Part shown: piece after piece, positions 17,638 through 34,554 of the stretch | How positions within the stretch are numbered: the first letter of the stretch is position 1 | Layout: every line of letters starts with the position of its first letter | Source of the DNA: Chloroflexota bacterium | Lineage (GTDB): Bacteria > Chloroflexota > Anaerolineae > Anaerolineales > UBA4823 | Length of the DNA stretch: 55,011 nt | Reading direction: 5' to 3' | Assembly (NCBI GenBank): GCA_029265355.1 | Contig: JAJUJL010000015.1 | Span: 1 to 55,011, forward strand | Translations under genes and position numbers: made by a program | The notes under the pieces: generated by a model | Databases searched by the model: none | The model's input: the letters and a program-made list of their open reading frames with translations, nothing else | What the model was told of the DNA's origin: nothing

Positions 17638-17827
17638 CGGTTTTTTTTGCCACAACTGCTTTTATTCGCCTGGAGAGTTCACGCCGGGGCAGAAGAACTC
17701 GCCGCCGGCATGTCTGACATTCCAGGCCGATATCCGCACCCAGACGGACCACTTTCCAATCATAGCCGCCACAGGGATGCGGCTTGCGCAGTCGCAATAT
17801 GTCTCCTAGGACCAGGTCTGGCAGCAT
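17630..17827 (-). CDS. DUF951 family small protein
   Basis: A 65-aa protein with the DUF951 pattern: DLVLGDILRLRKPHPCGGYDWKV… then LECQTCRRRVLLPR. The Cys residues of HPCG and CQTC probably bind a metal, and the fold is expected to be a small barrel. The start is placed at 17827 because TATAAT (minus strand, 17840-17835) lies exactly 7 nt before this ATG, so the mRNA would begin at or next to the start codon; an ATG 9 nt upstream would fall before the predicted transcription start. It leads the minus-strand operon with the glycosyltransferase. Function of DUF951 is unknown. Confidence 0.85.
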   Translation of the reverse strand: MLPDLVLGDILRLRKPHPCGGYDWKVVRLGADIGLECQTCRRRVLLPRRELSRRIKAVVAKKTDE

Positions 17828-17834
17828 CGAAATC

Positions 17835-17843
17835 ATTATATCA
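17835..17843 (-). promoter_or_regulatory. Extended -10 promoter of a leaderless transcript (DUF951)
   Basis: On the minus strand TGATATAAT forms an extended -10 box. The hexamer ends 7 nt before ATG at 17827, so transcription should start at or within one base of the start codon. No clear -35 box is seen, as expected for extended -10 promoters. Confidence 0.6.
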
Positions 17844-17950
17844 TGCCCGTATTCACGTCACCTTGGCTTTATCCCTCGGCGCGTGCACTCAACCTGACTA
17901 CTATTGGATGAACCTTTACTTACTTGGAAGAAGACGCTCATCTGGCCAGA

Positions 17951-18026
17951 TGGTATAATGTTTTTAATGTTCTTCGATGCTGGTAGGACTTACACAGTTA
18001 GCGCAGAGTTGGGCGTGGTTTGGTGA
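17951..18026 (+). promoter_or_regulatory. Extended -10 promoter and 19-codon leader ORF upstream of the M50 protease
   Basis: TGGTATAAT at 17951-17959 is an extended -10 box. Seven nt later an ATG (17967) opens a 19-codon frame ending in TGA at 18026, 61 nt before the M50 start. The frame begins MFFDAG and could be a leader peptide translated from a leaderless mRNA, or chance. Confidence 0.4.
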
Positions 18027-18087
18027 GCTCTGCACGTCTCGCTCCCAAACCCACCTGGAGTGCGCAAAAGACAGGATCATTCTAAAA

Positions 18088-18732
18088 ATGTTGGATCTAT
18101 CGCCCTCGATGATCATCTCGCACTTAATCGTGCTGTTGATCGCTTTCCCGGTTCACGAGTTTGCGCACGCCATTACAGCCAATTACTTCGGTGATGATAC
18201 ACCCCGTTTAGAAGGACGGCTGACATTAAACCCTGTCGCCCACCTGGATGTATTGGGATCCCTCTTGCTGATTGTGGCTGGTTTTGGCTGGGCGCGCCCG
18301 GTGAATGTCAACCCCTACGCCCTCTACCGTCGGTCTCCATCAGCGATGATGTGGGTTTCCCTGGCCGGCCCCCTGTCGAATCTGTTGATGGCATTGTTGG
18401 CAGCAATCCCCTTTCGGCTGGGATTGGTATCTTCTGGACAGGCTTACATGGATATGGTTTCCAGCGCCGATCACATTCTGCCGACTTTGCCTCAGGTGTT
18501 ATTGGTCTTTGTGTATATTAACCTGCTGCTGATGCTTTTCAACTTGATCCCTTTAGCGCCTTTGGATGGCGAAAAAATCGCGGATTACTTCTTTCCTCCA
18601 GCACTACAACGCGCGCTGAATACAATCCGCCCTTATGGACCCGTCATACTCATGGCAGTTGTGTTCCTGGGAGTGCTCTCTTGGATCATCACACCACCGC
18701 TAACCCTGCTCCTCAGGGTTTTGGTTGGATAG
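18088..18732 (+). CDS. Site-2 protease family metalloprotease (M50)
   Basis: A 214-aa integral membrane zinc protease of the short S2P-like class found in many bacteria. The active-site helix has HEFAH (residues 23-27) and the third ligand is D160 in APLDGEK. GFGWARPVNVNP and SLAGPLSNLLMAL are conserved family blocks. There is no PDZ domain, so substrate selection must differ from RseP. The ATG at 18088 precedes the first membrane helix; the frame is open to 17977, but that extension is polar and Cys-rich. The next gene, an HD protein, begins inside its end. Confidence 0.85.
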   Translation: MLDLSPSMIISHLIVLLIAFPVHEFAHAITANYFGDDTPRLEGRLTLNPVAHLDVLGSLLLIVAGFGWARPVNVNPYALYRRSPSAMMWVSLAGPLSNLLMALLAAIPFRLGLVSSGQAYMDMVSSADHILPTLPQVLLVFVYINLLLMLFNLIPLAPLDGEKIADYFFPPALQRALNTIRPYGPVILMAVVFLGVLSWIITPPLTLLLRVLVG

Positions 18733-19289
18733 ACCCGGCACGAGTCTGGTATCGCGCCAGGCAATTTTGGAGGGCATTGCTTGCCAGGCCTGATACGGCA
18801 GATCTGGCGTTGGCGCAGTCGGTGCTAGGCCCAGAGGCCATGCAGCTATTCCAAAAGATGCAGCCCAGTGAACAGCTCCACAGCATCCAGGTTTACCGGC
18901 GGGTGGCGACTATGCTGCAAGCTGAACCAATGGAGGCAGGCGAGCATCTACTGGTTGCCGCTTTACTGCACGATGTGGGTAAAAGCTGCCAGCCGCTTTC
19001 TGTGTGGGAACGGGTGGTCATCGTCATCGGAAAAGCCCTCTTTCCAAAAAGGGTGCAGGCATGGGGGGAATTCGATGACCCGCCGAGCAGCCAGGTTCCA
19101 TTTTGGCGGCGGGCGTTCATCGTGGCAGCACAGCACGCGCGCTGGGGTGCAGAGATGGCTGCCCGCGCGGGTGTATCTTCTCAGGCAGTGAGACTCATAG
19201 CCCGGCACCAGGATGCTCTTCCGAAGGAACTGGCGACGCTGGATGATCGGTTGGTGAATGTCCTTCAAATGGTAGACGATCAATTGTAA
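18681..19289 (+). CDS. HD-domain protein
   Basis: A 202-aa putative metal-dependent phosphohydrolase. The HD signature is split as LHSIQVYRRV (His) and ALLHDVGKS (His-Asp), with a further His in AAQHARWG. A TTG start at 18681 is proposed because GGGAG at 18669-18673 sits 7 nt upstream, and no other start precedes the conserved RARQFWRALLARP block. It overlaps the M50 gene by 52 bp. The substrate (nucleotide, phosphate ester or other) is unknown. It is followed 10 bp later by tyrA. Confidence 0.72.
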   Translation: MDHHTTANPAPQGFGWIDPARVWYRARQFWRALLARPDTADLALAQSVLGPEAMQLFQKMQPSEQLHSIQVYRRVATMLQAEPMEAGEHLLVAALLHDVGKSCQPLSVWERVVIVIGKALFPKRVQAWGEFDDPPSSQVPFWRRAFIVAAQHARWGAEMAARAGVSSQAVRLIARHQDALPKELATLDDRLVNVLQMVDDQL

Positions 19290-19299
19290 AAGGGTGTGT

Positions 19300-20292
19300 A
19301 TGGCGATTCAAGTTACGATTGTTGGATTGGGGCAAATCGGCGGCTCGATCGGGCTGGCCTTGGGCCAACACGAGAAGACATTTCTGCGCCTGGGGCATGA
19401 TCTTGACGCTTCTATTACCCAGAAGGCGAAGAAGATCGGTGCCATTGATCGCACGATGTTCAATCTTCCCTCAGCGATACGTGAAGCCGATGTGGTGATA
19501 CTGTCGCTGCCTATGGATCAAATCCGCGCGACGCTGCAGGTGATTGCCCAGGATTTGAAAGATCAGGCGGTGGTCCTGGACACCGGGCCAGTGAAAGAAG
19601 CTGTGGCGGCTTGGGCAGGTGAGTTGCTGCCCACTGGACGCTATTACGTTGGGCTAACGCCGGTGATCAATCCGGTTTACCTGCATGCTCTGGATCGCGG
19701 CCTGGATGCAGCCCGGCCAGACCTGTTCAACCACGGGCTGCTGGCAATTGCTTCACCGGCAGGCACTGCCTCTGAAGCGATCAAGCTGGCAGCGGACCTG
19801 GCGCGCCTGTTGGGTGCCGCGCCGTTGTTTGTCGATCCGCTCGAGATTGATAGCCTGATGGCTGCCACGCATATCCTGCCGCAACTGGTGGCGGCGGCTC
19901 TTCTGAATGCCACGGTTGACCAACCGGGCTGGCATGAGGCGCGCAAAATCGCGGGACGCGCCTATGCTGAGGTGACTGGAATCACTGCCCAAATGGATGA
20001 TGCGGATCCATTGCTTACCTCGGCAATCCTGAGCCGGGATAATGTGATTCGCTCCATGGATGGGTTGATCGCTTCCCTGCAAGCCATGCGCAATGACCTG
20101 GCCCAGGGAGACGCGCAGGCCTTGCAAGGTCGCCTGAGGCGGGCTTTTCATGGGCGGAATGAGTGGTGGAAGCAGCGCCAGTCAGCAAATTGGGAGGAGG
20201 CGCAATCAACATCAGAAGTAAAAACATCCGCTTCTTCAGAGATCTTTGGGCGATTGCTCGGCATCCGTCGCCGGACAAAGCCAAAAGCGTAA
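19300..20292 (+). CDS. tyrA: Prephenate dehydrogenase
   Basis: NAD(P)-dependent TyrA (330 aa) that turns prephenate into 4-hydroxyphenylpyruvate in tyrosine synthesis. The Rossmann loop VGLGQIGGSIG spans residues 8-18, and LDTGPVKEAV and HILPQLVAAAL fit the catalytic and helical C-terminal regions. There is no ACT or chorismate mutase domain; the last 40 residues are polar and weakly conserved. ATG at 19300 follows AAAAGGG. Arogenate dehydrogenase cannot be ruled out. Confidence 0.82.
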   Translation: MAIQVTIVGLGQIGGSIGLALGQHEKTFLRLGHDLDASITQKAKKIGAIDRTMFNLPSAIREADVVILSLPMDQIRATLQVIAQDLKDQAVVLDTGPVKEAVAAWAGELLPTGRYYVGLTPVINPVYLHALDRGLDAARPDLFNHGLLAIASPAGTASEAIKLAADLARLLGAAPLFVDPLEIDSLMAATHILPQLVAAALLNATVDQPGWHEARKIAGRAYAEVTGITAQMDDADPLLTSAILSRDNVIRSMDGLIASLQAMRNDLAQGDAQALQGRLRRAFHGRNEWWKQRQSANWEEAQSTSEVKTSASSEIFGRLLGIRRRTKPKA

Positions 20293-20358
20293 GCACAAGT
20301 CGATCACAATTCCAATCTTTGGGTTATTAAAACCGTTTCCCACACAGAGGTAAAAAAA

Positions 20359-21564
20359 ATGTCTGTCTCCGATGCGCATGTATCAGAAAAATTGCAATGG
20401 ATTCAGGATGAGCTGCAGTCGCTGAAAGAGAGCGGTTTATATACGCGAATACGCACGCTGAGCTCATCCCAAGGAGCCTGGCTGGTTGTCGATGGCAAAA
20501 AGGCTCTCAATTTCTGTTCAAATAATTATCTTGGCCTGGCAAATCATCCCCGCCTGGTACGTGCAGCCTCAGAAGCTATCCAGAAATATGGTGTTGGCCC
20601 GGCGGCAGTGCGCACCATTGCAGGTACGATGGAATTGCATGTGGAGCTGGAAAAACGCCTGGCAGCTTTCAAAAAAGTGGCAGCGGCGATTTCGTTTCAA
20701 TCCGGGTTCAATGCCAACCTGGGCACCATCCCTGCCCTGGTGGGGAAGGAAGACGCCATTTTCTCCGATGAGCTGAACCACGCCAGCATCATCGACGGCT
20801 GTCGCCTTTCGGGAGCGCGTATCATTCGCTACGCGCACTGCGATCCGAGCGACCTGGAGCGCGCCTTGAAAGAGCACCGCTCAGGTTTCACCAGGGCCCT
20901 GGTGGTCACCGATGGCGTCTTCAGCATGGATGGCGATGTCGCTCCCCTGGACGCAATCTATGAGGTGACCCGCCATTACGATGCCATTTTGATGGTGGAT
21001 GATGCTCACGGGGAAGGGGTGTTGGGCCATGGTGGACGGGGTATCGTTGATCACTTCCACCTGCACGGCAAAGTGGATATCGAAATTGGCACAATGTCGA
21101 AAGCTTTTGGGGTGGTTGGAGGCCTGGTAGCCGGCAATCCGGTGGTTATTGAGTGGCTGCGCCAGCGCGGCCGCCCATTCTTGTTCTCATCAGCAATGAC
21201 TGTGCCAGATACTGCAGCTTGCCTGGCAGCCCTGGATGTTCTGGAGGAGTCGACTGAACTGGTCGATAAGCTGTGGGCAAATACGCGTTATTTCAAGGAT
21301 GAAATGCGCCGCCTGGGCTTCGATATTGGGAAGAGCATCACGCCGATCACACCGGTTATGCTGGGTGAAGCGCCCCTGGCGCAGCAGTTCAGTCGCGAAC
21401 TGTTTGAAAACGGTGTCTTTGCCACGGCAATTGGCTTCCCAACTGTGCCGCGCGGCAAAGCGCGCATTCGGGTGATGATTTCAGCCGCGCACGAGCGGGA
21501 TGACCTGGATTATGGGTTGGAGGCATTTGCCCGCGTTGGGCGCTCGACCGGCGTGATTGCATGA
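20359..21564 (+). CDS. kbl: Glycine C-acetyltransferase (2-amino-3-ketobutyrate CoA ligase) / BioF-type synthase
   Basis: PLP enzyme of the alpha-oxoamine synthase family (401 aa). The PLP lysine is K248 in [12 protein letters not shown]; other blocks are [43 protein letters not shown] and [12 protein letters not shown]. Length and the N-terminal region fit Kbl, which cleaves 2-amino-3-ketobutyrate with CoA to glycine and acetyl-CoA. No threonine dehydrogenase gene is adjacent, so a role as 8-amino-7-oxononanoate synthase (biotin) is an alternative; many Kbl-like proteins can do either. AGAGG lies before the ATG. Confidence 0.8.
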
Positions 21565-21621
21565 GAAAAACAGCAGCCGCGCTGCCTGACCATTGTAGCT
21601 GGCGAGGCTGTGCGGCTGCTG
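21563..21621 (-). terminator. Rho-independent terminator for the small minus-strand gene
   Basis: Inverted arms of 10 bp (21571-21580 and 21612-21621) with internal pairing in the loop. Read on the minus strand the hairpin is followed by TTTTTCTC, so it ends transcription of the 21646-21879 gene. It overlaps the end of kbl. Confidence 0.65.
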
Positions 21622-21645
21622 ATCATAGGATAATGAGCAGCAGGT

Positions 21646-21879
21646 TTATAGATCGCTTTCCGCGAAGGGATCAAAGTTGGGGTTGGTTCCGGCCCACACA
21701 CAGCTCGCTCGCCCATCCAGGTTGCATGTCAAAGCTTGCGAGCAACGGTGAGCCACCACGCGCGGCGCTTGTTCGGGGAGGAAGTCTGCCGGGAAGATGA
21801 GCTGAGCTTCCATGGATACTTCGGTCCCGGCGTGTTCGCAATAGCGTACCTTAATAACCTGCCAAGTTTTGTGTGCCAT
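21646..21879 (-). CDS. Small Cys-rich conserved protein, function unknown
   Basis: A 77-aa protein beginning MAHKTWQVIKVRYCEHAG and carrying HRCSQ, LTCNLDG and ASCVWAGTNP. Four Cys and several His suggest a metal-binding fold. GGAGG sits a few bases before the start on the minus strand and a T-tailed hairpin follows the stop, so it looks like a real single-gene unit. I believe similar short proteins occur in other Anaerolineae, but I cannot name a family. It is convergent with kbl and divergent from the peptide transporter region. Confidence 0.6.
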   Translation of the reverse strand: MAHKTWQVIKVRYCEHAGTEVSMEAQLIFPADFLPEQAPRVVAHRCSQALTCNLDGRASCVWAGTNPNFDPFAESDL

Positions 21880-21978
21880 CGTAGGCCTCCAGACTTTCCA
21901 GAAAATAGCCCCCTTGTTGGGGCAAACCGGTAACCATTGATTGATTAAAGTATACCTCTTTACATCTGACGAGAAAAG

Positions 21979-22005
21979 TGACAGGTGTCATACGAAATTA
22001 TGACA
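21979..22005. promoter_or_regulatory. Cluster of TGACA half-sites
   Basis: TGACA-GG-TGTCA (21979-21990) is a perfect inverted repeat, and its right arm also pairs with a further ATGACA (22000-22005) across 8 nt. Three half-sites within 27 bp of an intergenic region suggest binding by a dimeric regulator acting on either the small minus-strand gene or the transporter. Confidence 0.4.
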
Positions 22006-22083
22006 AATTCCCTCTCCGTTGCCCGACTCGTTCTACTCACCTTCGCGCTGCAGCTTGTGGTGGAGCCGTCCTATCGCTGCGAA

Positions 22084-22099
22084 AATCGAATATTCGATT
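22084..22099. promoter_or_regulatory. 16-bp perfect palindrome, candidate operator
   Basis: AATCGAATATTCGATT reads the same on both strands and its last two bases are the first two of the TTGACA -35 box (22098-22103) of the transporter promoter. A bound protein here would block or contact RNA polymerase. Confidence 0.55.
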
Positions 22100-22125
22100 G
22101 ACATTATTTGACGGAGAGTTATAAT
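22098..22125 (+). promoter_or_regulatory. Sigma-70-type promoter of the transporter operon
   Basis: TTGACA (22098-22103), 16-nt spacer, TATAAT (22120-22125). Predicted start near 22132 gives a leader of about 125 nt. A second TATAAT at 22151-22156 lacks a good -35 box. The 377-bp gap 21880-22256 otherwise holds only the half-site cluster and the palindrome. Confidence 0.75.
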
Positions 22126-22256
22126 CTTTAAGTCACACTGATAAATCGCGTATAATTGGTCAGACAAAGGAGGTGAGATCGCACCGATCACACAAGTCGA
22201 ACCCAAGCATCTGTTCATCGATCATATCCAAACATGTTTAGGATGGAGAAAGAAGA

Positions 22257-23942
22257 ATGAGCCGTAAACCAATTCTTGTCTTCGTTGTGCTGGCTGTGCT
22301 GTTCAGCATGGTGCTGTCGGCTTGCCAGCCGCAGGCTGCGCCCACAGCGGAGGCGACCGAAGAAGTTGTGGCTTTTGAGCCACTGAAGATGGAAGCGCCG
22401 AACTGTGACTATGGCGGCCTTTTCAAATCTATGGAAGCTGTGGATGAATTCACCGTCAAGTTCACCATGTGCGCTCCTGACCCGGCGTTCCTGTCCAAGA
22501 TCGCCTTCTCGTCGTTCTCGATTCAACCGAAAGAATACCTGGAGCAGACGGGCGGCGGCGGCGAAGGCAGCGCCCTGCTGGAGAAGCCGGTTGGCACCGG
22601 ACCGTACAAGGTCAGCGAGTGGAAGCGCGGCGAGGAGCTGATTTTCACTGCTTTTGAAGATTATTGGGGTGCGGATAAGGCCAAGACGCCAACCCTGGTC
22701 TTCCGCTGGAGCTCTGAGGCTGCCCAGCGCCTGCTCGAACTGCAGGCCGGCACTGTCGATGGTATCGACAACCCTGGGCCGGATGATTTTGCCAAGATCG
22801 AATCCGATCCAAACCTGGTGCTCATCCCCCGCCCGGCATTGAACATTTTCTACATCGGCATGAACAATACCTACCCGCCGTTCGATAACGAGCAGGTACG
22901 CCAGGCGATTGCGATGGGCATTGATCGCCAGCGCATCGTCGACAACTTCTATCCCGCTGGTTCGGAAGTCGCCTCGCACTTCACCCCCTGCTCGATCCCC
23001 AACGGCTGCGTCGGCGAATCCTGGTATGAGTTCGACCCGGTTAAAGCCAAAGAAATGCTGGCAGCGGCGGGCTACCCGGATGGCTTCGCCACCAAGCTGT
23101 ACTACCGCGATGTGGTGCGCGGCTACCTGCCGCAGCCCGGAGTGGTTGCCCAGGATATCCAGGCGCAGTTGAAAGAGAACTTGAACATCGATGTCACCAT
23201 CGAGGTTCAAGAATCAGGCACATTCCTGGATAATGCTGATTCGGGCTTGCTGGATGGCTTACACCTGTTGGGATGGGGCGCTGACTACCCAGATCAGACC
23301 AACTTCCTGGATTATCACTTCGGCGCTGGCTCTTCCAAGCAGTTTGGCGAGAAGTTCACTGACCTGACGGATACCTTGAAGCAGGCCGCGGCCCTGGCTG
23401 GTGATGAAGCTCGCAAGCCGCTGTATGAAACCGCCAACAACCTGATCAAGCAGCACGTGCCCATGATCCCTGTGGCGCACGGTGGTTCAGCCACGGCTTA
23501 CAAGGCGACTGTGGATGGTGCTCATTCCAGCCCACTCGGCAATGAGAACTTCTCGGTTATGGCTGTACCGGGACAGGAGACATTTGTCTGGATGCAGAAT
23601 GCAGAACCAATCTCACTCTACTGCCCCGATGAGACGGATGGCGAGTCGCTGCGCGGTTGTGAGCAGGTTGTCGAGTCGCTGTATCGCTACGAAATCGGCG
23701 GCACGGCTGTCCAGCCCAGCCTGGCGGAAGTTTGCTCGCCCAACGCTGATCTGACCGAATGGACCTGCACACTCCGTAAAGGTGTCAAGTTCCATGATGG
23801 CTCCACCCTGGATGCCAATGATGTCGTGATGTCGCTGCTGGTGCAATGGGATGCTTCCCATCCACTGCACAAGGGCAACACGGGCGCCTTCACTTACTTT
23901 AGCTCGCTGTGGGGTGGCTTGCTAAACGCTCCGGCTGAGTAA
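22257..23942 (+). CDS. Peptide-type ABC transporter substrate-binding lipoprotein, circularly permuted
   Basis: Extracellular solute-binding protein of SBP family 5 (Opp/Dpp type), 561 aa, with signal peptide and lipobox VLSAC (Cys23). The order of segments is permuted. Straight after the lipid anchor come blocks normally found in the middle: SMEAVDEFTVKFTM, PVGTGPYKVSEW (VGTGPY at 112-117), QAIAMGIDRQRIV, the late block GWGADYPDQTNFL, and the usual C-terminal SPLGNENF. Only then, from about residue 441, follow the blocks that usually start the mature protein: MQNAEPISL (446-454), PSLAEVCSP, LRKGVKFHDGSTLDANDVV. The new ends fall in one loop. Promoter and operator lie upstream; two permease genes follow. 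Ligand probably peptide-like, not determined. Confidence 0.85.
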   Translation: MSRKPILVFVVLAVLFSMVLSACQPQAAPTAEATEEVVAFEPLKMEAPNCDYGGLFKSMEAVDEFTVKFTMCAPDPAFLSKIAFSSFSIQPKEYLEQTGGGGEGSALLEKPVGTGPYKVSEWKRGEELIFTAFEDYWGADKAKTPTLVFRWSSEAAQRLLELQAGTVDGIDNPGPDDFAKIESDPNLVLIPRPALNIFYIGMNNTYPPFDNEQVRQAIAMGIDRQRIVDNFYPAGSEVASHFTPCSIPNGCVGESWYEFDPVKAKEMLAAAGYPDGFATKLYYRDVVRGYLPQPGVVAQDIQAQLKENLNIDVTIEVQESGTFLDNADSGLLDGLHLLGWGADYPDQTNFLDYHFGAGSSKQFGEKFTDLTDTLKQAAALAGDEARKPLYETANNLIKQHVPMIPVAHGGSATAYKATVDGAHSSPLGNENFSVMAVPGQETFVWMQNAEPISLYCPDETDGESLRGCEQVVESLYRYEIGGTAVQPSLAEVCSPNADLTEWTCTLRKGVKFHDGSTLDANDVVMSLLVQWDASHPLHKGNTGAFTYFSSLWGGLLNAPAE

Positions 23943-23974
23943 TCAGACCGGCTGTAAGAGTATCAGGACCGGCT

Positions 23975-24031
23975 CCGGTGGGGGCGCCGGCTGGCCACAA
24001 AACTGGCCAGGGTACTCCCACCGGATTTATT
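23975..24031 (+). terminator. Intercistronic hairpin after the substrate-binding protein
   Basis: Outer arms CCGGTGGG (23975-23982) and CCCACCGG (24017-24024), inner arms CTGGCCA (23991-23997) and TGGCCAG (24004-24010), then ATTTATTTC. It probably lets part of the transcripts stop, giving more binding protein than permease, or protects the upstream mRNA end. Confidence 0.6.
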
Positions 24032-24044
24032 TCACTCGAGTGAA
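24031..24044. promoter_or_regulatory. 14-bp palindrome at the permease start
   Basis: TTCACTCGAGTGAA ends 2 nt before the ATG at 24047. It contains the only GAG that could serve as ribosome site, so folding or protein binding here could control translation of the permease. Confidence 0.4.
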
Positions 24045-24046
24045 TC

Positions 24047-25126
24047 ATGGTCACCTACATCATCCGACGTGTAATCTCCAGCCTCCCGGTTCTCCTGGGG
24101 ATCCTGTTTGTCACTTTTGCTCTGGGGCGGCTGATCCCCGGAGACCCGTGCCGCGCGATTTTGGGAGAAAAGGCCACCGATGTCGTCTGCGACGAGTTCA
24201 TTCGTCGACACGGCCTCGACAAGCCGATTCCGACCCAGTTTGTTATTTACATTGGAGAGATCTTGCGCGGCGACCTGGGAACTTCGCTGCGCTATGGGAA
24301 ACCCGTGACCGAGTTGATTGTCGAGCGCCTGCCCACCACGCTGGAATTGAGCCTGGCGGCAATGACCTTCGCGGTGCTGGTCGGCATTCCACTGGGCATT
24401 ATCTCTGCGGTGAGACACAATTCGTCGATTGATATTGGCACCATGGTATTGGCGAACGTGGGCGTTTCCATGCCGGTCTTTTGGTTGGGCTTAATGCTGG
24501 CCTACATCTTCGCCTTGCTGTTGAAGGGCACACCCCTTCAATTACCCCCCTCTGGCCGACTATCACCGGGCACAATCGTGCCTCCCTTCTACGAGGTTTG
24601 GGGAATGGAAATTGCCGCTCAAGGGGTTTTTTCCAGCCTTGTGGTCTTCCTGAGCCGTTTGAACATCCTGAACGCGCTGCTCACTGCGCGTTGGGATGTC
24701 ATGGCAGATGCTATCCGCCACCTGTTGCTGCCTGCTGCGGCTGTAGGCACCATTCCCCTGGCGATCATCGCCCGAATGACGCGTTCCAGCATGCTGGACG
24801 TGCTGGGCCAGGAATATATCCGCACCGCGCGCGCCAAGGGCGCTCGCTTCCGCGCCGTGGTGCTGAAACACGCTCTGCGCAATGCGTTGCTGCCCTTGGT
24901 GACGATCATTGGCCTTTCGCTGGGCAGCTTTCTGGGTGGCGCAGTGCTCACCGAAACCATATTTGGCCTCTCAGGCGTTGGGCGAATTTTATATGATGCG
25001 ATAACAGCGCGCGATTACGGTGTTGTACAATCCTTCACTGTGGTCATCGCTATTTTCTTCGTGATCTTAAATCTCATTGTGGATGTTTCGTACGTCTACC
25101 TGGATCCACGCGTTCGGCTGGACTAG
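24047..25126 (+). CDS. Peptide-type ABC transporter permease (DppB/OppB type)
   Basis: Inner-membrane channel subunit, 359 aa. N-terminal TYIIRRVISSLPVLLGILFVTF and the conserved LIPGDPC lead to a periplasmic loop and the permease domain; the ATPase-contact motif is EYIRTARAKGARFRAVVLKHALRNALLP. A loop of about 60 residues rich in Pro sits between segments 3 and 4 (LQLPPSGRLSPG…). It lacks a clear ribosome site and begins 2 nt after a palindrome. It is followed 5 bp later by the partner permease. No ATPase gene is nearby, so the complex must borrow ATPases encoded elsewhere. Confidence 0.92.
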   Translation: MVTYIIRRVISSLPVLLGILFVTFALGRLIPGDPCRAILGEKATDVVCDEFIRRHGLDKPIPTQFVIYIGEILRGDLGTSLRYGKPVTELIVERLPTTLELSLAAMTFAVLVGIPLGIISAVRHNSSIDIGTMVLANVGVSMPVFWLGLMLAYIFALLLKGTPLQLPPSGRLSPGTIVPPFYEVWGMEIAAQGVFSSLVVFLSRLNILNALLTARWDVMADAIRHLLLPAAAVGTIPLAIIARMTRSSMLDVLGQEYIRTARAKGARFRAVVLKHALRNALLPLVTIIGLSLGSFLGGAVLTETIFGLSGVGRILYDAITARDYGVVQSFTVVIAIFFVILNLIVDVSYVYLDPRVRLD

Positions 25127-25131
25127 CAATT

Positions 25132-26100
25132 ATGACGACTCACGACATGCCTCAAGTAAGCACCGGAAAAGTTGTCAGCCTGGATGCAGAAACCTTATCT
25201 GCTAAGAGTGTTTCTCTTTGGAAAACGACCTGGCGGCGGTTCTTCAAGCGAAAATCGGCTCTTGTCGGTCTGGTGATGTTGTCCATTTTGATTTTTTGCG
25301 CCATCTTTGCGGAAGTGATTGCGCCTTACGACCCATTGCAAGTGCTGATTGGCGTTGAGCCGGTGAAAATGCGCCAGGCGCCGTGCATTCATTTGCTGGG
25401 CTGCCCGCAAGATCAACCCCAACATCTGATGGGGATCGATGGGAATGTGCGCGACCAATTCAGCCGCATCATCTATGGCTCCCGGCTGAGCTTATTGGTG
25501 GGGTTTACCACAGTGAGCTTCGCGGTGGTCATCGGCACCGTTTTGGGCGCTGTGGCTGGTTACCTCGGGGGAACGGTTGATAACGTCATCATGCGCCTGA
25601 TGGATGTGCTGCTGGCTTTCCCATCTTTGCTGCTGGCGATTGCCATCGTTACAATCCTGGGACCTGGCCTGATCAATGCTCTGTTGGCAATTGGAATTGT
25701 CTCCATCCCCGCCTACGCTCGTGTGGTGCGCTCAACCGTGTTGACGGTGCGTGAGATGGAGTTTATCGAGGCGTCTCGCTCGTTGGGGGGTGGTCCGTTC
25801 TATATTCTCTTCAGCCGCTTGCTGCCCAATTCATTGACCCCTCTCGTGGTGCAGGCGACCCTGGGCATCGCCACTGCCATTCTGGACGCCGCTGCCCTTT
25901 CCTTCCTGGGTTTAGGAGCGATCCCGCCCACACCAGAATGGGGCACGATGTTGGGAGCAGAACGAAACCAGGTTTTCACCGCACCGCACCTGGTCTTCTA
26001 TCCTGGGCTGGCGATCATGTTTACCGTGCTGGCTTTCAACTTGATCGGCGATGGTTTGCGGGATGCATTGGACCCACGCCTGGCGCAGAGCAGCAAGTGA
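25132..26100 (+). CDS. Peptide-type ABC transporter permease (DppC/OppC type)
   Basis: Second channel subunit, 322 aa. It has the N-terminal cytoplasmic tail, WRRFFKRKSALVGLVMLSILIFCAIFA as first helix, the periplasmic segment with HLMGIDGNVRDQFSRIIYGSRLSL, and the EAA-like contact FIEASRSLGGGPFYILFSRLLPNSLTPL. The C-terminal block SFLGLGAIPPTPEWGTML is typical of DppC. An insert in the loop holds CIHLLGCPQDQ with two Cys that may form a disulphide. It ends the transporter operon at a strong terminator (26118). Confidence 0.92.
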   Translation: MTTHDMPQVSTGKVVSLDAETLSAKSVSLWKTTWRRFFKRKSALVGLVMLSILIFCAIFAEVIAPYDPLQVLIGVEPVKMRQAPCIHLLGCPQDQPQHLMGIDGNVRDQFSRIIYGSRLSLLVGFTTVSFAVVIGTVLGAVAGYLGGTVDNVIMRLMDVLLAFPSLLLAIAIVTILGPGLINALLAIGIVSIPAYARVVRSTVLTVREMEFIEASRSLGGGPFYILFSRLLPNSLTPLVVQATLGIATAILDAAALSFLGLGAIPPTPEWGTMLGAERNQVFTAPHLVFYPGLAIMFTVLAFNLIGDGLRDALDPRLAQSSK

Positions 26101-26117
26101 TCACCCATGAATTCGGA

Positions 26118-27509: not shown

Positions 27510-27511
27510 CA

Positions 27512-28399
27512 GTGCCAGACTTAATTCTCAACCTGCTCAATAATCTGCAGTTCATCTTTGAACGTCTGAACTGGTTGAACCTGGTTGACTTGATCCTGGT
27601 GACGCTGGTGTTTTTTGTCATCTTGCAACTCCTGCGGGATACGCAGGCGATGGTTCTGCTGCGGGGAGTGCTGCTTTTAATTGTTTTGATCAGCCTGCTG
27701 ACGAGCCTGGATGTGCTGCCCGCATTTTCCTGGTTGGTGCAAAATACTTTGCCGGCGTTATTGCTCTCCATTCCAGTCGTTTTTGCCCCTGAGATTCGGC
27801 GCACCGTGGAGCGCTTAGGCAGGGCGGGAAGCATTCTCGCCAGCGATGCGCAAGGCGCTGATGCGGGCGATGTGATCTCTTTAGTGGTCGGCGCTGCAGT
27901 GAGGCTTTCGGACCGCAGGCATGGCGCATTGATTGTGCTGCAGCGTTTCGATAGCCTGAGTGATTATGTCAAAACTGGTGTGCTCTTGGAAGCCCAGGTA
28001 ACTGCTGAACTGCTGCTACAGGTGTTCTACCCCAATACACCGCTGCATGATGGCGCGGTGATTATTTCAGGGGATCGGTTGGTGGCGGCTGCTTGCGTGA
28101 TGCCGCTTTCTGCCAGCGGCGTGCTTACCCGCTCGCCCGAGCGCCAGATGGGTCTGCGACACCGCGCCGCGCTGGGGATATCCGAGGTTACCGATGCGGT
28201 GGCAGTTGTAGTATCCGAGGAAACCGGATCGATCTCTGTTGTGCATGGCGGCCGGATGATTCGTCGCCTGGACAGCGAACGCCTGGAAAACATCTTAAGA
28301 ACCTTTTTCCGGCCGCGTGAGGCCAGGCGCGGCATTTTAGGCCTGTTCATGCGCCCAACCAAAAGCGAACGCCCCGGAAATTTTCGGGAGGAGAACTGA
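27512..28399 (+). CDS. cdaA: Diadenylate cyclase CdaA
   Basis: Membrane-bound c-di-AMP synthase, 295 aa, making the second messenger from two ATP. Three N-terminal membrane helices (about residues 20-95) precede the DisA_N domain with the active-site motifs LHDGAVII (D180-G181-A182) and GLRHRAALG (R216-H217-R218). It starts with GTG 2 bp after coaE and is followed 1 bp later by cdaR, its usual regulator partner. c-di-AMP normally governs osmotic balance, potassium uptake and wall homeostasis. Confidence 0.94.
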   Translation: MPDLILNLLNNLQFIFERLNWLNLVDLILVTLVFFVILQLLRDTQAMVLLRGVLLLIVLISLLTSLDVLPAFSWLVQNTLPALLLSIPVVFAPEIRRTVERLGRAGSILASDAQGADAGDVISLVVGAAVRLSDRRHGALIVLQRFDSLSDYVKTGVLLEAQVTAELLLQVFYPNTPLHDGAVIISGDRLVAAACVMPLSASGVLTRSPERQMGLRHRAALGISEVTDAVAVVVSEETGSISVVHGGRMIRRLDSERLENILRTFFRPREARRGILGLFMRPTKSERPGNFREEN

Positions 28400-28400
28400 C

Positions 28401-29696
28401 ATGCCATCCGCTCCTCTGCGTTGGCTGGCGCGCAACTTGAGCACACTGCTGATGGCATTCATACTGGCAGTGGTGGTGTGGGTTTCAGCGATCTTGGCGT
28501 TTGATCCCAACGAAGAACGTCAATACCCGCGCGCAGTGACCTTGGAGTTAAGTGGATTGGATCCTGGGCTGCTTCAAGTGGGCCGCGTCCCTGCTCAGGT
28601 GAGGGTGTCGATCAATGCGCCTCGCTCTGTTTGGGATCAGCTCACTTTCAACACCGACCGCGTGCGCGCCTGGATCGATCTCTCTGGCCTCGGTGCAGGA
28701 CAGCACGAGGTGCCGGTGCGTGTGCAGGTCAATGCCTCGCCGGCGCGGGTAACCAGCGTTGATCCAGAGAAGGTCACCGTAGAATTGGAAGCATTGGTTT
28801 CCCGAGAATATCAAATTGAGCTCGTTATTACCGGCGAACCTGCCCTGGGTTACCGCAGGGGCGCCCCCCAGCTCGATCCAAGAACGGTGACGGTTACCGG
28901 AGCCGAGTCGGAAGTGGCGAAGGTGGTGCGTGTGACAGCTGATGTGGATATCACCAATGCCAATTCGGTCATCCGCCGCAACCTGGTATTGGAACCAAAA
29001 GATGCCCTGGGACAAACGGTGAGCAATGTGACCGTATCCCCTGCGCTGGCAGACTTTACCCTGAGCGTCGATCTGCTCGGCGGGTACCGGAATGTGGTGG
29101 TGAAGGTGATCACCACGGGCGATGTTGCGGAGGGGTACTGGCTGACCAATATCAATGTCACCCCCCCCAATGTCACGGTATTTTCAACCAACCCCAGGCT
29201 GGTGAATGATTTGCCAGGATTTGTTGAGACGAACCCTATCAACCTGAGTGGGTTGAGCGATGATACCGATATCCGCGCCACCCTGGACCTGCCAGAGGGG
29301 GTGACCCTGGCGGGGGATGAGAGTGTGTTGGTGCGGCTCAGCATCGCAGCCCTGGAAGGCAGTTTGCCAATCGCTCTCCCGTTGGAGGTCATCGGCCTGC
29401 CGCCGGAGCTGACCGCAGTGCTCGCTCCTGATACTGTTGATGTGATGCTGGCAGGTCCGCTGCCGATATTGAATAATTTAAATCCGGCGGGCATTCGTTT
29501 GGTGGTGAACCTCAGCGGCCTGGGGCTGGGAACTCACCAGGTGCCGCCTGTCATCGACTTGCTGCCCAGCCAGGTGCGTGTGGCGTATATTCAACCAGAG
29601 ACAGTCGAAGTTGAGATCATCGAAGCGCCCACCCCAACACCGGAGGGTTTTGTTGCCTCGCCCACACCGGGGGCTACCGTCACCCCTCAACCTTGA
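28401..29696 (+). CDS. cdaR: CdaR/YbbR-domain regulator of CdaA
   Basis: A 431-aa protein with one N-terminal membrane helix (LSTLLMAFILAVVVWVSAILAF) and an extracellular region of about four YbbR repeats; recurrent sequences such as LSGLDPGLLQVGRVPAQVRVSI, VTVTGAESEVAKV and VTVFSTNPRLVND mark the repeats. The tail is Pro/Thr-rich. It binds and regulates CdaA in other bacteria. It begins 1 bp after cdaA and ends where der starts (GAGGAG of the der ribosome site overlaps its stop). Confidence 0.9.
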   Translation: MPSAPLRWLARNLSTLLMAFILAVVVWVSAILAFDPNEERQYPRAVTLELSGLDPGLLQVGRVPAQVRVSINAPRSVWDQLTFNTDRVRAWIDLSGLGAGQHEVPVRVQVNASPARVTSVDPEKVTVELEALVSREYQIELVITGEPALGYRRGAPQLDPRTVTVTGAESEVAKVVRVTADVDITNANSVIRRNLVLEPKDALGQTVSNVTVSPALADFTLSVDLLGGYRNVVVKVITTGDVAEGYWLTNINVTPPNVTVFSTNPRLVNDLPGFVETNPINLSGLSDDTDIRATLDLPEGVTLAGDESVLVRLSIAALEGSLPIALPLEVIGLPPELTAVLAPDTVDVMLAGPLPILNNLNPAGIRLVVNLSGLGLGTHQVPPVIDLLPSQVRVAYIQPETVEVEIIEAPTPTPEGFVASPTPGATVTPQP

Positions 29697-29704
29697 GGAG
29701 TATT

Positions 29705-31075
29705 ATGCCTAAGCCTGTTGTTGCTTTAGTAGGTCGTCCAAACGTGGGGAAAAGCACCCTGTTCAACCGCCTGGCTGAAGAACGCCTGGCAGTGGTGGAT
29801 GATACGCCCGGCACAACCCGAGATCGCCTGGTCGCAGAGGCAGAATGGGCCGGAGTGGTTTTCGATATTGTGGACACCGGAGGTATTGATCCCACCGAGA
29901 CTGGACCAGGGCGCAGCCTGGAGCCGTTATCGATAGGTTCGGCTGATTTTGTGCAGCAAATCCGGGAGCAGGCTGAGATCGCTATTCGCCAGGCAGATGC
30001 CGTGCTTTTTGTGCTGGATGCTGAGAGCGGCGTGACGCCTGCGGACCGAGAAGTTGCCAATATCCTGCGTCGCAACCAGGTGATGCGTGAGGGCCAACCC
30101 TGGCCTCCGGTTTTGCTGGTGGTGAATAAAGCTGACAGCGCCGCGCGGCGTGAATTGGTTTACCAATTCTACGAGCTTGGGATGGGTGAACCCTTCCCAA
30201 TCTCTGCTTTGCATGGCACCGGCACCGGCGATTTGCTGGATGCGTTGGTGGCGTCCTTCAGAAAGCGGGGCGAGGAAGTGGAGGATGACTCGGTCAAGAT
30301 TGCTATTGTGGGCAAGCCAAATGTTGGGAAATCCAGCCTGCTGAATCGACTGGTAGGAGAGGAACGCGCCATTGTAAGCCCGATCGCCGGCACGACCAGA
30401 GACGCGATAGATACTCGATTGGAAGTGAATGGCATTCCAGTGACCTTGATTGACACTGCCGGCATCCGGCGCAGGGGCAAAATTGATCCCGGCGTTGAGA
30501 AATACTCGGTTTTGCGCTCAATGAGCGCCATCGAGCGTGCTGACGTATGCTTGCTGATGATCGATGCGGTGAGTGGGATCACAGCCCAGGATGCCCACAT
30601 TGCCGGGTATATCTTGGATGCCTGGAAGAGCGTGGTGGTGCTGGTCAATAAATGGGATGCGGTGCCGAAAGATTCAAGCACTCTGGATGCATTTACTCGA
30701 CGCGTGCGCCAGGAGCTGAATTTTCTACCGTATGTGCCGATTTTGTTTATCTCAGCATTGACCGGTAAGCGTGTTGAGCAGGTGCTGCCGATGGCTTTGC
30801 GAGTACAAGAAGAGCGCCTGGTGCATCTGGCAACTTCCCGGCTGAACCAGATGCTGCAAAAAGCTCAAAGCATGCACCCTGCACCCTCGCATGCTGGTCG
30901 CCAATTGAAAATTTATTATGGTACGCAAGTGCGCAACGATCCGCCTACGTTTTTGCTGTATGTCAATGACCCTAAACTTGGTCATTTCACCTACATGCGC
31001 TACCTGGAAAATCGTCTGCGAGAGGAGCATCCTTATTTGGGTACCCCGATTCGCCTGGTGATGAAACCGCGTTAA
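29705..31075 (+). CDS. der: Ribosome-assembly GTPase Der (EngA)
   Basis: Double GTPase of 456 aa acting in 50S subunit assembly. Both G domains are complete: GRPNVGKST, DTPGTTRDR, DTGG and NKAD in the first, GKPNVGKSS, GTTRDAIDT, DTAG and NKWD in the second, followed by the KH-like C-terminal domain with LKIYYGTQVRNDPPTF. Start at 29705 follows GAGGAG (29695-29700). It completes the coaE operon; lepB downstream has its own promoter. Confidence 0.96.
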   Translation: MPKPVVALVGRPNVGKSTLFNRLAEERLAVVDDTPGTTRDRLVAEAEWAGVVFDIVDTGGIDPTETGPGRSLEPLSIGSADFVQQIREQAEIAIRQADAVLFVLDAESGVTPADREVANILRRNQVMREGQPWPPVLLVVNKADSAARRELVYQFYELGMGEPFPISALHGTGTGDLLDALVASFRKRGEEVEDDSVKIAIVGKPNVGKSSLLNRLVGEERAIVSPIAGTTRDAIDTRLEVNGIPVTLIDTAGIRRRGKIDPGVEKYSVLRSMSAIERADVCLLMIDAVSGITAQDAHIAGYILDAWKSVVVLVNKWDAVPKDSSTLDAFTRRVRQELNFLPYVPILFISALTGKRVEQVLPMALRVQEERLVHLATSRLNQMLQKAQSMHPAPSHAGRQLKIYYGTQVRNDPPTFLLYVNDPKLGHFTYMRYLENRLREEHPYLGTPIRLVMKPR

Positions 31076-31119
31076 TTGCGCCTGCTCCTGACAATTTGGT
31101 GAGCGACACTTGCCAGCCC

Positions 31120-31148
31120 TTGCCCCTTCCCCATGGCGGTTTTATAAT
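31120..31148 (+). promoter_or_regulatory. Promoter of lepB (leaderless)
   Basis: TTGCCC (31120-31125), 17-nt spacer, TATAAT (31143-31148). Seven nt separate the -10 box from the ATG at 31156, so the transcript should begin at or one base before the start codon. No ribosome site can be present. Confidence 0.7.
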
Positions 31149-31155
31149 GATTTTC

Positions 31156-31782
31156 ATGATTGGTGAAGATGTGGAAAATGCGCCGCTGCCTGCTGATCAT
31201 GAGGCTGCGCTGAGCAAGGTTGAAGCGATTGAGCCTGACGGAAAGAACGGGCGCGCGAGTCGCCTGGCAAGTTTTCTGCGTGATACAGCAGAGACACTGC
31301 TTCTGGCGGTGCTGATGTTTGTGGTGATCAACGGGATAACAGCTCGAATCCGGGTGGAAGGGATCAGTATGGAGCCCACTCTCGAATCCGGCAGTTATGT
31401 ACTGGTGAACCGCCTGGCTTATCGCCTGGGAACGCCCAGCCGCGGTGATGTGATTGTTTTCCGCTTCCCACGTGATCCAGACCAGGAATACATCAAGCGC
31501 ATCATTGGACTGCCTGGCGATTTGGTAGAGGTGTCTGGAGGAGAGGTGCGCGTCAATGGCGAGCGTTTGGAAGAGCCCTACATTGGGCAGCCTGCGGATT
31601 ATGAAAGCGCTCTGCGTGTGCCCAGGCAGCAATTGTTTGTCTTGGGGGATAATCGCAACAATTCATCCGATTCGCATCAATGGGGACCGGTGCCGCTGGA
31701 AAATGTGGTTGGCAAGGCGGTCCTGGTCTATTGGCCGCCGGAAGAGTGGCAGATCATCAGCCACTCGGAATGGGGCCGGTAA
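31156..31782 (+). CDS. lepB: Signal peptidase I
   Basis: Membrane serine protease (208 aa) that removes signal peptides from secreted proteins. One N-terminal membrane helix (about 45-62) is followed by catalytic S71 in GISMEPTL and general base K114 in EYIKRIIGLPGD; FVLGDNRNNSSDSHQWGPV is the conserved box E. Start at 31156 is chosen from the promoter geometry: an in-frame ATG at 31147 overlaps the TATAAT box itself. The N-terminal 40 residues are acidic and poorly conserved. It stands as its own unit after der. Confidence 0.93.
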   Translation: MIGEDVENAPLPADHEAALSKVEAIEPDGKNGRASRLASFLRDTAETLLLAVLMFVVINGITARIRVEGISMEPTLESGSYVLVNRLAYRLGTPSRGDVIVFRFPRDPDQEYIKRIIGLPGDLVEVSGGEVRVNGERLEEPYIGQPADYESALRVPRQQLFVLGDNRNNSSDSHQWGPVPLENVVGKAVLVYWPPEEWQIISHSEWGR

Positions 31783-31846
31783 TGTTAGAATCGGCTTTTA
31801 TGAGCAGGGCATAAATATTTCAATGATTGCCAGCGAGGGGTGAGGC

Positions 31847-32140
31847 ATGCCTCCCAAGAAACGAACTGCAAACCGGGATCCAGAGCAACAACCGGTGCTC
31901 TGCTCAGAGTGCCAGACCGGGATAATGAACTTTCATTACCTGACCTATTTTACCTGGTTGAATGAAGAGCTCATCAGCGTGCCGAATTTTCCGGCATGGG
32001 TGTGCGACGTGTGCGGCAGGCGTGAATATGACTCGCGAGCTGTCCAATGGTTGAACGCTCTGTTGAGCCCGGAAGCCGGACGCAAGCATTCCTCGCGGCG
32101 GGGCGGCGCTCTGCCGCGCAACGACCGGCTGCAGCCGTAA
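31847..32140 (+). CDS. YgiT-type zinc-ribbon protein
   Basis: A 97-aa protein with two Cys pairs, CSECQTG and CDVCGRREY, spaced as in the YgiT/MqsA-N zinc-binding domain, with the intervening strand region FTWLNEELISVPNFPAWVC. YgiT proteins are often antitoxins, but there is no HTH region and no toxin next to it, so this may be a stand-alone zinc ribbon. The C-terminal 25 residues are basic and probably disordered. GAGGGGTGAGG lies upstream. It converges on the Nudix gene with a 7-bp gap. Confidence 0.65.
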   Translation: MPPKKRTANRDPEQQPVLCSECQTGIMNFHYLTYFTWLNEELISVPNFPAWVCDVCGRREYDSRAVQWLNALLSPEAGRKHSSRRGGALPRNDRLQP

Positions 32141-32147
32141 TTCCCAG

Positions 32148-32675
32148 CTAAAAAAATTGTGGGCGAGCCAGCAACAGCGCGCCGAGCGTTTTGGCGTCCT
32201 GGATGCGCCCTGTTTCCGCCATGACGTAGGCGTCCCGAAGCGGAATGCGTTCGATATTCAAGAATTCATCGATATCGCCGGGGAGCGGGGCGGGGACGAG
32301 CTGCTGGGCGAGAAAGACGTGCATACACTCGGTGGAATAGCCAGGCGCCAGGTAGAAACTGCCCAATTTGCGCAGGACGCCAGCGTCCATGCCGATTTCT
32401 TCTCTGAGCTCGCGACGGGCGCTCGCCTCGCTGGGCTCTCCTGCCTCCATGACACCGGCTGGGAGCTCCAGCAAGATTTGCCCGGCAGGCTGGCGAAACT
32501 GGCGAATGAACCAGATGTTGTCGTCAGCATCAATGGGCAAAAGGGTCACAGCATCTGCATGATCGATGATATCTAGCGTGATTTGCCGGGCGTCTGGCAG
32601 CTCAACCAAATCCTGACGCACTTTGAAGGCACGACCTCGGAAGACGGTTTCAGAGCGGATGGTTTTGAAATTCAT
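32148..32675 (-). CDS. Nudix hydrolase (ADP-ribose pyrophosphatase type)
   Basis: A 175-aa Nudix enzyme. The Nudix box reads GVMEAGEPSEASARRELREEIGM, shown here as G-x5-E-x7-REL-x-EEIG from about residue 80, and the downstream FYLAPGYSTECMHVFLA fits ADP-ribose pyrophosphatases (the Pro-Gly pair after the box). It should hydrolyse ADP-ribose or similar nucleoside diphosphate sugars. The start MNFKTIRSE at 32675 is used because the open frame before it overlaps non-coding sequence and lacks family features. Confidence 0.88.
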   Translation of the reverse strand: MNFKTIRSETVFRGRAFKVRQDLVELPDARQITLDIIDHADAVTLLPIDADDNIWFIRQFRQPAGQILLELPAGVMEAGEPSEASARRELREEIGMDAGVLRKLGSFYLAPGYSTECMHVFLAQQLVPAPLPGDIDEFLNIERIPLRDAYVMAETGRIQDAKTLGALLLARPQFF

Positions 32676-32763
32676 GGCGCACCAGAGCTTTAGAATAGAG
32701 CAGGTCGTGGCAGGAACAGCGCGCCAGCCACGACCCGACCTAACGGCATGCAAATCGATTGAT

Positions 32764-33459
32764 CTATGGGATGTACAGACTCTGTCCCGCGGTGAGCTCG
32801 TAAGGGGACTGGAGATTATTGGCAATGATAATGGCGTTGGGGTCGGCATCGCCAAATTCGCAGGCGATCGAGTAGATCGTGTCTCCGGCAGAGACGGTGT
32901 AATTGGCGGGATGGGGTTTCAAGGAGCGCGCCGCTGGAAAACCACCGCCTCCCTGTGGGATGCGCAGCACCATGCCCGGGTAATAGGTATCTCCGCCGCT
33001 CAGGCCAGAGAGCTGCAGCAGATCAGCCGGGTTGACATTGAAACGGCGTGCGATGCAGTAAGGATGTTCGCCTTTTTGAAGTGTGTAACTGGTCGGTATG
33101 CCGGGTGTGGCAGTAGGCACCGTCACCGGAGGCTGTGTTGGCTGGGCGGCGGCAGGTGTAGCGCTGGGTTGTGCAGCGGCAGGCGCTTCGGTAGTGGGCT
33201 GCGCTTCTCCGCTTGCTGTAGTGGGTGCGGGGGTGGCTTGGGCAGGCTGTTGGGTGGCCTGTAGAGCCATCAGGGTTTGCGTGGCGGCTCTTTCCAACTG
33301 GCTCATCACGTCGCTGGTTGCACCCTCTTCAGGAGACTTTGCACCGGATGTCGATTCACCGGTTGAGGCGGGTGGCGTGGAGGCTCTCTGTACACAACTC
33401 GTTGCCAGCAGTGTCAGGGTCAGCGCCAGGATAACAAGGATAACGCGCGCTTGTTTCAT
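32764..33459 (-). CDS. Lipoprotein with two LysM domains
   Basis: A 231-aa exported lipoprotein with lipobox LLATSC (Cys22), a long linker rich in Ala, Pro, Thr and Gln (about 25-140), and two C-terminal LysM domains: SYTLQKGEHPYCIARRF…GMVLRIP and NYTVSAGDTIYSIACEF…GQSLYIP. LysM binds N-acetylglucosamine polymers such as peptidoglycan. The Cys in each repeat may pair. GAGGAG 7 nt before the ATG at 33459 decides the start; an ATG at 33465 is too close to it. A good promoter lies about 80 nt upstream. Confidence 0.85.
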   Translation of the reverse strand: MKQARVILVILALTLTLLATSCVQRASTPPASTGESTSGAKSPEEGATSDVMSQLERAATQTLMALQATQQPAQATPAPTTASGEAQPTTEAPAAAQPSATPAAAQPTQPPVTVPTATPGIPTSYTLQKGEHPYCIARRFNVNPADLLQLSGLSGGDTYYPGMVLRIPQGGGGFPAARSLKPHPANYTVSAGDTIYSIACEFGDADPNAIIIANNLQSPYELTAGQSLYIP

Positions 33460-33547
33460 GATCATTCTCCTCGACTTGGATCTTCCAGGAACATCCGGCG
33501 CAGTTGAGCGAATGAGCCGGCTGATTCTTCTGTAGTATTTTGCAATG

Positions 33548-33576
33548 ATACTAGCACAAACTCAATAAAGCGTCAA
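33548..33576 (-). promoter_or_regulatory. Promoter of the LysM lipoprotein gene
   Basis: On the minus strand TTGACG (33576-33571), 17-nt spacer, TAGTAT (33553-33548). Predicted start near 33541, giving a leader of about 80 nt. Confidence 0.65.
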
Positions 33577-33660
33577 GTATTTTGGATTCTTGCAGATTTA
33601 CGTGCTTTTATCAAAAAGCCTGGTTGGGTTGTTGCAAGTATTGTGCCATGCACGGGGTTT

Positions 33661-34542
33661 TCAAAACTGGCTTTGAGAGAAATCCAGCAGCAGTTGTGCC
33701 AGTTGCTGTGGATGCTGGAGGGGAATGTCGTGGACGCTGTTTTCCATCCAATGGACCTTTAGATTTTTCTGATTGGATTGGATGTGTTTGATTCCGGATT
33801 CCTTGAGCGATAAAAATTCTTCTTCTTGGGGAGAACGCGGCGGCGCGGCGCGGGCTGGAACCAGGAGGATTGGGCATCGGACGCGCCTGTAGCGTTCAAA
33901 GGTCTTAAATTCCCACATTGCTCGCACGATCTGCATGTGATGCTCATAGGTCAGCCGCGGGGAAATGGTTTCCTCGCGAGAGACTTCAAAATTAGCCAGT
34001 ATGATTTGCTGGGCTGCGTCGTCCAGTTGCCAGTTGGCATTGGACGTTCTGAGGCGAGCGAGAAAGTCTTCCACCGGCATACCTGCCAGACGCGGCGGCG
34101 ACAGGCGCGCTTGAATCGACTCCCAGGTAGCATTGGGCAGCATATCCAATTGGGAAAAGCCGCCGTCGACCAATACCAGGCCAGCGGGTGCAAGCGGCCC
34201 ATGCGTGAACTGCGCCGCAAAATCCAGCGCCAGCATAGCCCCCCAGGAATGTCCCACCAAGAGCGGGCGCTCGATATCCCAACCCTTGAAGAGCGCTGCC
34301 AGGTCGCGGGTGAAGGTGGCAAAGCCATAGTCGCTTTCTGGTTTATCGGTCAGGCCGTGTCCACGCAGGTCCGGCGCCAGAACCGCGCACCCAGCTTCAG
34401 CCAGGTAAGGCGCAACCAGCTCCCAAATGCGGGCGTTGGAAGCCAGTCCGTGCAGCAGCACCAGCGTGCGGCTGCTGTTTCCCAGGTTCCAATGAAGGTA
34501 GTGATAGCGGAGATCGTTGATCAGCAGGTAGCTGGATGGCAT
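33661..34542 (-). CDS. Alpha/beta hydrolase
   Basis: A 293-aa hydrolase. Oxyanion region VLLHGLASNARIW, DLRGHGLTDKP, nucleophile elbow VGHSWGAMLALDF, and a late His in ENSVHDIPLQHPQQ complete the fold. Substrate unknown; the family includes esterases, lipases and haloalkane dehalogenases. Start at 34542 follows from TATAAT exactly 6 nt upstream on the minus strand, so the mRNA is expected to begin with the start codon; an ATG-like triplet at 34557 would be upstream of that point. Confidence 0.85.
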   Translation of the reverse strand: MPSSYLLINDLRYHYLHWNLGNSSRTLVLLHGLASNARIWELVAPYLAEAGCAVLAPDLRGHGLTDKPESDYGFATFTRDLAALFKGWDIERPLLVGHSWGAMLALDFAAQFTHGPLAPAGLVLVDGGFSQLDMLPNATWESIQARLSPPRLAGMPVEDFLARLRTSNANWQLDDAAQQIILANFEVSREETISPRLTYEHHMQIVRAMWEFKTFERYRRVRCPILLVPARAAPPRSPQEEEFLSLKESGIKHIQSNQKNLKVHWMENSVHDIPLQHPQQLAQLLLDFSQSQF

Positions 34543-34548
34543 TGAGCT

Positions 34549-34554
34549 ATTATA
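34549..34554 (-). promoter_or_regulatory. -10 box of a leaderless transcript (alpha/beta hydrolase)
   Basis: TATAAT on the minus strand ends 6 nt before the ATG, placing +1 on its A. A CTGCCA-like -35 box (4 of 6 matches) is 16 nt upstream. Confidence 0.55.

Follow-up and report, generated by a model that had tools for sequence, protein, structure and literature searches.

Results

Start-codon boxes and genes in the window

The window, by which we mean the whole stretch of DNA analysed (55,011 nucleotides; contig 27, bases 1-55011), is part of a 5.05-Mb genome in 64 contigs. It carries exactly 4 matches to TATAATN{6,7}ATG, against a shuffle mean of 0.20 and with 4 matches reached in 0/100 shuffles; the TATAAT hexamer alone occurs 12 times, with 5.9 expected. 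These four are the sites that the original prediction had put forward as leaderless starts, and each was found where it had been placed. Three of them stand before genes whose proposed products agree with Pfam: a DUF951 gene (17630..17827, minus strand), a 65-codon frame with its ATG at 17827 (PF06107, 1e-23 on 60 residues); lepB for signal peptidase I (31156..31782, plus strand; signal peptidase S26, PF10502, 1e-48), with a leaderless-type ATG; and an alpha/beta hydrolase gene (33661..34542, minus strand), with its ATG at 34542 (PF12697, 6.7e-25). The corresponding candidate -10 boxes lie at 17835..17840 (minus strand; N7 before the ATG), 31143..31148 (plus strand; N7) and 34549..34554 (minus strand; N6), and an SD-like word is absent before all three starts (rows L146, L176, L206). 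The fourth box, at 17954..17959 on the plus strand, is N7 from the ATG of a 19-codon frame (17967..18026, plus strand). The base preceding the ATG at the four sites is G, C, A and A, the C of lepB being the sole pyrimidine, and the window's own four are thus not good examples of the pyrimidine preference reported below for the genome.

The DUF951 layout is conserved in the order

The DUF951 box has TGA in front of it and so reads as an extended -10 (TGnTATAAT). We compared 47 DUF951 loci of the order including our own, namely sets of 30, 7 and 8 loci plus L256 and L265. A perfect TATAAT stands 6-8 nt before the start in 35/47 of them (22 at N6, 12 at N7 and 1 at N8), which upholds the proposal that this box is placed for transcription from the start codon. 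Among these 35 loci the start codon is ATG in 30 and GTG in 5, a pyrimidine precedes it in 32, and TGn stands in front of the box in 24; a conserved -35 was not seen in the 47-locus table. The other 12 loci comprise near misses (TATACT in L289, TATAAA in L153) and clear absences (e.g., L154, L160, L265 and L300). In the rest of the class the layout is present in 2/5 loci (L264, L301), and outside the class in 0/27, these being drawn from the best 30 phylum loci (113 genomes had a match). In most loci the DUF951 homology starts at the box-adjacent start codon. Taken as a comparative result, this conservation suggests that DUF951 is very probably leaderless.

The fourth box precedes a divergent M50 peptidase gene

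Divergent from DUF951 lies an M50 peptidase frame (17977..18732, plus strand; PF02163, 3.8e-12), which tblastn located at 23 of the 30 DUF951 loci. TATAAT occurs upstream of it in 21/23 loci, our own included, mostly as TGGTATAAT, the form in the window, and mostly after TGG. The first in-frame M50 start is 15-34 nt past the box in 18/21 loci, often behind AGGAG or GGAGG; the remaining loci are two that look leaderless (L147 at N6, L160 at N7) and one that is ambiguous (L154). From these alignments, the box at 17954 is predicted to serve the divergent M50 gene as its conserved promoter, and this gene would usually be leadered. The 19-codon frame had been offered as a fourth leaderless case, and this we reject: the relatives use the box for M50, their 15-34 nt leaders are too short to hold the frame, and no conserved gene beginning at the ATG at 17967 was found in the relatives' loci examined. 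The frame is probably incidental. The M50 start in our genome is itself uncertain, because alignments to relatives mostly begin at residues 32-44, and the homology sets in near residue 38, where there is an ATG at 18088.

The lepB promoter is fixed while its distance to the start drifts

The lepB box is preceded at 17 bp by TTGCCC (31120..31125, plus strand), and the two together make a sigma-70 type promoter, TTGCCC-17-TATAAT. With the copy on contig C20 left out of the comparison, TATAAT is found upstream in 25/30 lepB loci (own included), and TTG stands exactly 17 bp before it in 24/25. The nearest in-frame start in the 25 TATAAT loci ranges from N1 to N57: it falls at N6-9 in 5 (our own L176, L186, L196, L197 and L199), at N10-13 in 3 and at N17-57 in 14, while in two further loci a TTG at N1-2 is followed by another start at N11 or N19, and in one no start is present. 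The best lepB relatives on named contigs belong to Chloroflexota, Anaerolineae and Anaerolineales genomes (L071-L077), and on this basis we take our genome to be an Anaerolineales-like member of the Chloroflexota; TATAAT is present in 7/8 lepB relatives on named contigs and a start at N6-9 in 0/7. Since the distance is fixed to the -35 and drifts to the start, the hexamer would be part of the promoter and not of the start codon. In our genome lepB is probably leaderless, its leader having been lost. The claim made for lepB therefore stands in part: the promoter is conserved and the spacing here is N7, but the N6-9 spacing is shared by only 5/25 loci.

The hydrolase fared less well in the same kind of comparison, its box being present in 0/11 homologs (L207-L217). 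The perfect box at N6 keeps it plausible as a single-species case of leaderless expression, but the original prediction gains nothing here from conservation.

TATAAT at N6-8 is enriched in the genome

The genome-wide count proposed along with the original prediction came out enriched, and the refuting outcome named there, a lack of enrichment, did not occur: TATAATN6/7ATG occurs 95 times in the whole genome, against 10 for the reversed pattern and 26 for TATAAT-N15/16-ATG. The spacing was profiled in a 2.05-Mb sample of the 5.05-Mb genome, made up of the window and 100 further stretches and including 4,647 bases given as N; the sample contains 363 TATAAT. ATGs downstream of these number 16, 27 and 14 at N6, N7 and N8, with a background of 7.0 per spacing at N10-40; for ATGs opening frames of at least 80 codons the counts are 13, 18 and 11, with a background of about 2.3 per spacing over the same range. 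The long-frame sites at N6-8 thus number 42, against about 7 expected, and about one in six of them (7 of 42) is expected to be due to chance. Neither GTG nor TTG has an N6-8 peak after the 363 TATAAT. A modest excess of ATC at N7 (14 vs 7.3) counts against the leaderless reading. A pyrimidine precedes the ATG in 32/42 long-frame sites and in 34/68 control ATGs (one-sided p 0.005), an excess that is expected if initiation sits on a pyrimidine-purine step. No -35 excess was detected in this group: at least 4 matches to TTGACA occur in 8/42 sites and at a shifted position also in 8/42. The TG extension is scarcer here (4/42) than at other TATAAT (54/321), and we did not adopt the idea that leaderless sites are a class of extended -10 promoters, although TGn accompanies the box in 24/35 DUF951 loci.

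Leaderless-type genes are a minority

To put these sites on a per-gene scale, we used 1682 genes from a crude caller based on dicodons. Of these called genes, 41 have a perfect box at N6-8, where six control windows average 7.8; allowing up to one change in the inner positions gives 113 genes and a control average of 52.7, a less clean signal than the perfect box. The excess over control is about 2.0% (perfect box) and 3.6% (one change) of called genes. Leaderless genes therefore appear to be real yet a minority, some 2-4% of called genes on this measure, and this share is rough because the caller misses DUF951. SD-like 5-mers stand before 699/1682 called genes, compared with 243 at a shifted control position. 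The idea that leaderless mRNA is routine in this lineage consequently needs trimming: the enrichment is genome-wide and, as described below, order-wide, but the habit is a minority one. Leaderless-type boxes precede 24/328 divergent genes and 14/673 co-directional genes with >50 nt upstream (p 0.00013); they are commoner before divergent genes, which have to be served by a promoter of their own. A positional profile on the crude caller's starts in the first 850 kb gave no clear box, since those starts are too noisy. The 16S 3' end (GGATCACCTCCTTT) was searched for in the assembly and not found.

Order and phylum

Summed over 121 genomes of the order, the pattern occurs 7873 times at N6/7, 2893 times at N15/16 and 2015 times as the N6/7 reversed control. 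The N6/7 count is above N15/16 in 119/121 genomes (binomial p<0.01 in 89/121) and above the reversed control in 116/121, leaving 5/121 in which it is not above. Four of these five (G042, G066, G075 and G083) carry the label f15 g37 and look AT-rich, with many TATAAT and no excess over the reversed control. Among 151 phylum genomes, inspection by eye puts the 13 members of the order first for this excess; in the others the excess is lower, or TATAAT occurs too seldom for a judgement.

Discussion

Based on our findings, we propose that a minority of genes in this genome are transcribed without a leader from promoters of the housekeeping sigma factor, beside Shine-Dalgarno initiation, and we put the probability of this reading at about 85%. 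RNA polymerase would bind the perfect -10 box, helped by the -35 in the case of lepB or by the TG extension in the case of DUF951. Because the box lies 6-8 bp upstream, transcription is predicted to begin on the start codon's first base or within one or two bases of it. Such an mRNA would lack a leader for ribosome binding, and the ribosome would have to start on a 5'-terminal AUG. Leaderless mRNAs are known to be less sensitive to kasugamycin. The box, its spacing, its enrichment, its conservation and, for lepB, its fixed distance to the -35 and not to the start codon are read directly from the sequences; where the transcript begins and how it is translated are what we infer from them. The promoter may stay fixed while the intervening leader shrinks or grows; the leaderless state could therefore come and go, as in lepB, and be kept, as in DUF951.

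Other accounts of the same pattern have to be weighed against this proposal. TATAAT might be an A/U-rich element that lies within a longer leader and aids non-Shine-Dalgarno initiation of the S1 type; the promoter itself would then be located farther upstream. Such A/U-rich stretches ahead of start codons are described as a known bacterial initiation aid (PMC5397173), and the genes in question do lack an SD; however, the lepB hexamer keeps 17 bp from the TTG of the -35 in 24/25 loci and stands at varying distances from the start, as a promoter would, the same TGGTATAAT precedes a Shine-Dalgarno leader at M50, and an exact hexamer with a narrow N6-8 peak suits a -10 box. We therefore regard this account as unlikely. 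The promoter might instead fire at the ATG, with translation beginning at a downstream in-frame codon behind a short leader. M50, where the ATG at N7 is not the start of the gene, would suit such a scheme. It is hard to reconcile with an enrichment specific to ATGs that open long frames (42 vs about 7), and with DUF951 homology that begins at that very start codon in most loci, and we give it little credence as the general rule.

That a common AT-rich hexamer simply meets an ATG by chance probably holds for about one in six sites, and perhaps for the hydrolase and the 17967 frame, both of which are unconserved. As a general account, chance is very improbable and we rule it out, since the number of matches in the window was not reached by its shuffles and the pattern is enriched both in the genome and across the order.

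The leaderless genes proposed here are of a kind already known, also in this phylum. Zheng et al. (2011) report predicted leaderless genes in 4/12 Chloroflexi genomes at a mean of 4.7% (4.0-5.7), and a TAtaaT pattern in medium-GC groups including Chloroflexi (PMC3160421); the same signal in the same place is seen here, their Pribnow-box (TA-like) signal lying some 12 bp ahead of the start. A gene-level account of the order, of DUF951 or of lepB was not found in the part of that paper at hand (PMC3160421), whereas we traced single genes through their relatives. According to a figure cited in the available part of PMC9581028, leaderless transcription is predicted in 21.6% of bacterial species. 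The same part describes Mycobacterium tuberculosis and Deinococcus deserti, in which a minority to a sizeable share of mRNAs starts at the start codon, much as proposed here; the difference is that those species were mapped by RNA-seq, whereas our analysis uses sequence alone and gives a lower share, with TATAAT coupled to ATG and no GTG peak (PMC9581028). In the open-licence literature we found no report of leaderless conservation of DUF951, the online gene lists of Zheng et al. being outside the scope of that search, and no transcript-start map for the order.

Gene-finding programs built around a Shine-Dalgarno site put the starts of leaderless genes in the wrong place, and the order-wide count supplies a testable set of predicted ones. 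The gain and loss of leaders is directly testable in the comparison of DUF951 (kept leaderless) with the divergent M50 gene (a like box, usually leadered) and lepB (a fixed promoter with a drifting leader). As a tentative idea, which we think more doubtful than not, selection may keep DUF951 leaderless across Anaerolineales-like lineages, so that its synthesis tracks conditions favouring initiation at a 5'-terminal AUG, lepB meanwhile losing and gaining leaders under a fixed promoter. If this were true, the order would be a natural series in which the causes of the leaderless state could be studied.

Palindromic and back-to-back boxes

Some boxes can be read in both directions. In the window, a palindromic ATTATAAT at 10928-10935 has a minus-strand ATG at N4 that opens 321 codons, a distance too close for the leaderless layout. 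The arrangement CATN7ATTATAATN7ATG, with N7 on both sides only, occurs at 20 sites in 20/400 genomes, and its reversed control at 7 sites in 6 genomes. Both frames have at least 80 codons in 6/20 of the palindromic sites, two of the six being near-identical. At these six (L276 in our own genome, C58:105366-105393; L269, L273, L274, L279 and L285), divergent frames with ATGs 22 bp apart share one palindromic -10, ATTATAAT. At L276, one frame (389 codons) encodes an LPG-synthase-like membrane protein and the other (460 codons) a protein with PD40 and Ig-like domains. The sites recall the enteric bidirectional promoters with a pseudo-symmetrical -10, in which one symmetric -10 is read both ways; they differ in that each direction would yield a leaderless coding gene, the two just 22 bp apart, which was not found for the enteric promoters in the parts of these papers available to us (PMC12825309, PMC10268837).

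Separate boxes may also stand back to back. Between DUF951 and M50, several relatives (e.g., L149 and L152) have the outward-facing -10 boxes separated by only about a dozen bases, as against 113 bp in the window. The 2.05-Mb sample contains 5 pairs of leaderless-type boxes placed back to back, a small number, and in 3 of them the boxes are 51-54 bp apart (C4:36381/36435, C4:195907/195958 and C63:8660/8713). One of the six frames at these three pairs has just 23 codons. From the distance between the boxes, the -35 regions of the 51-54 bp pairs would abut.
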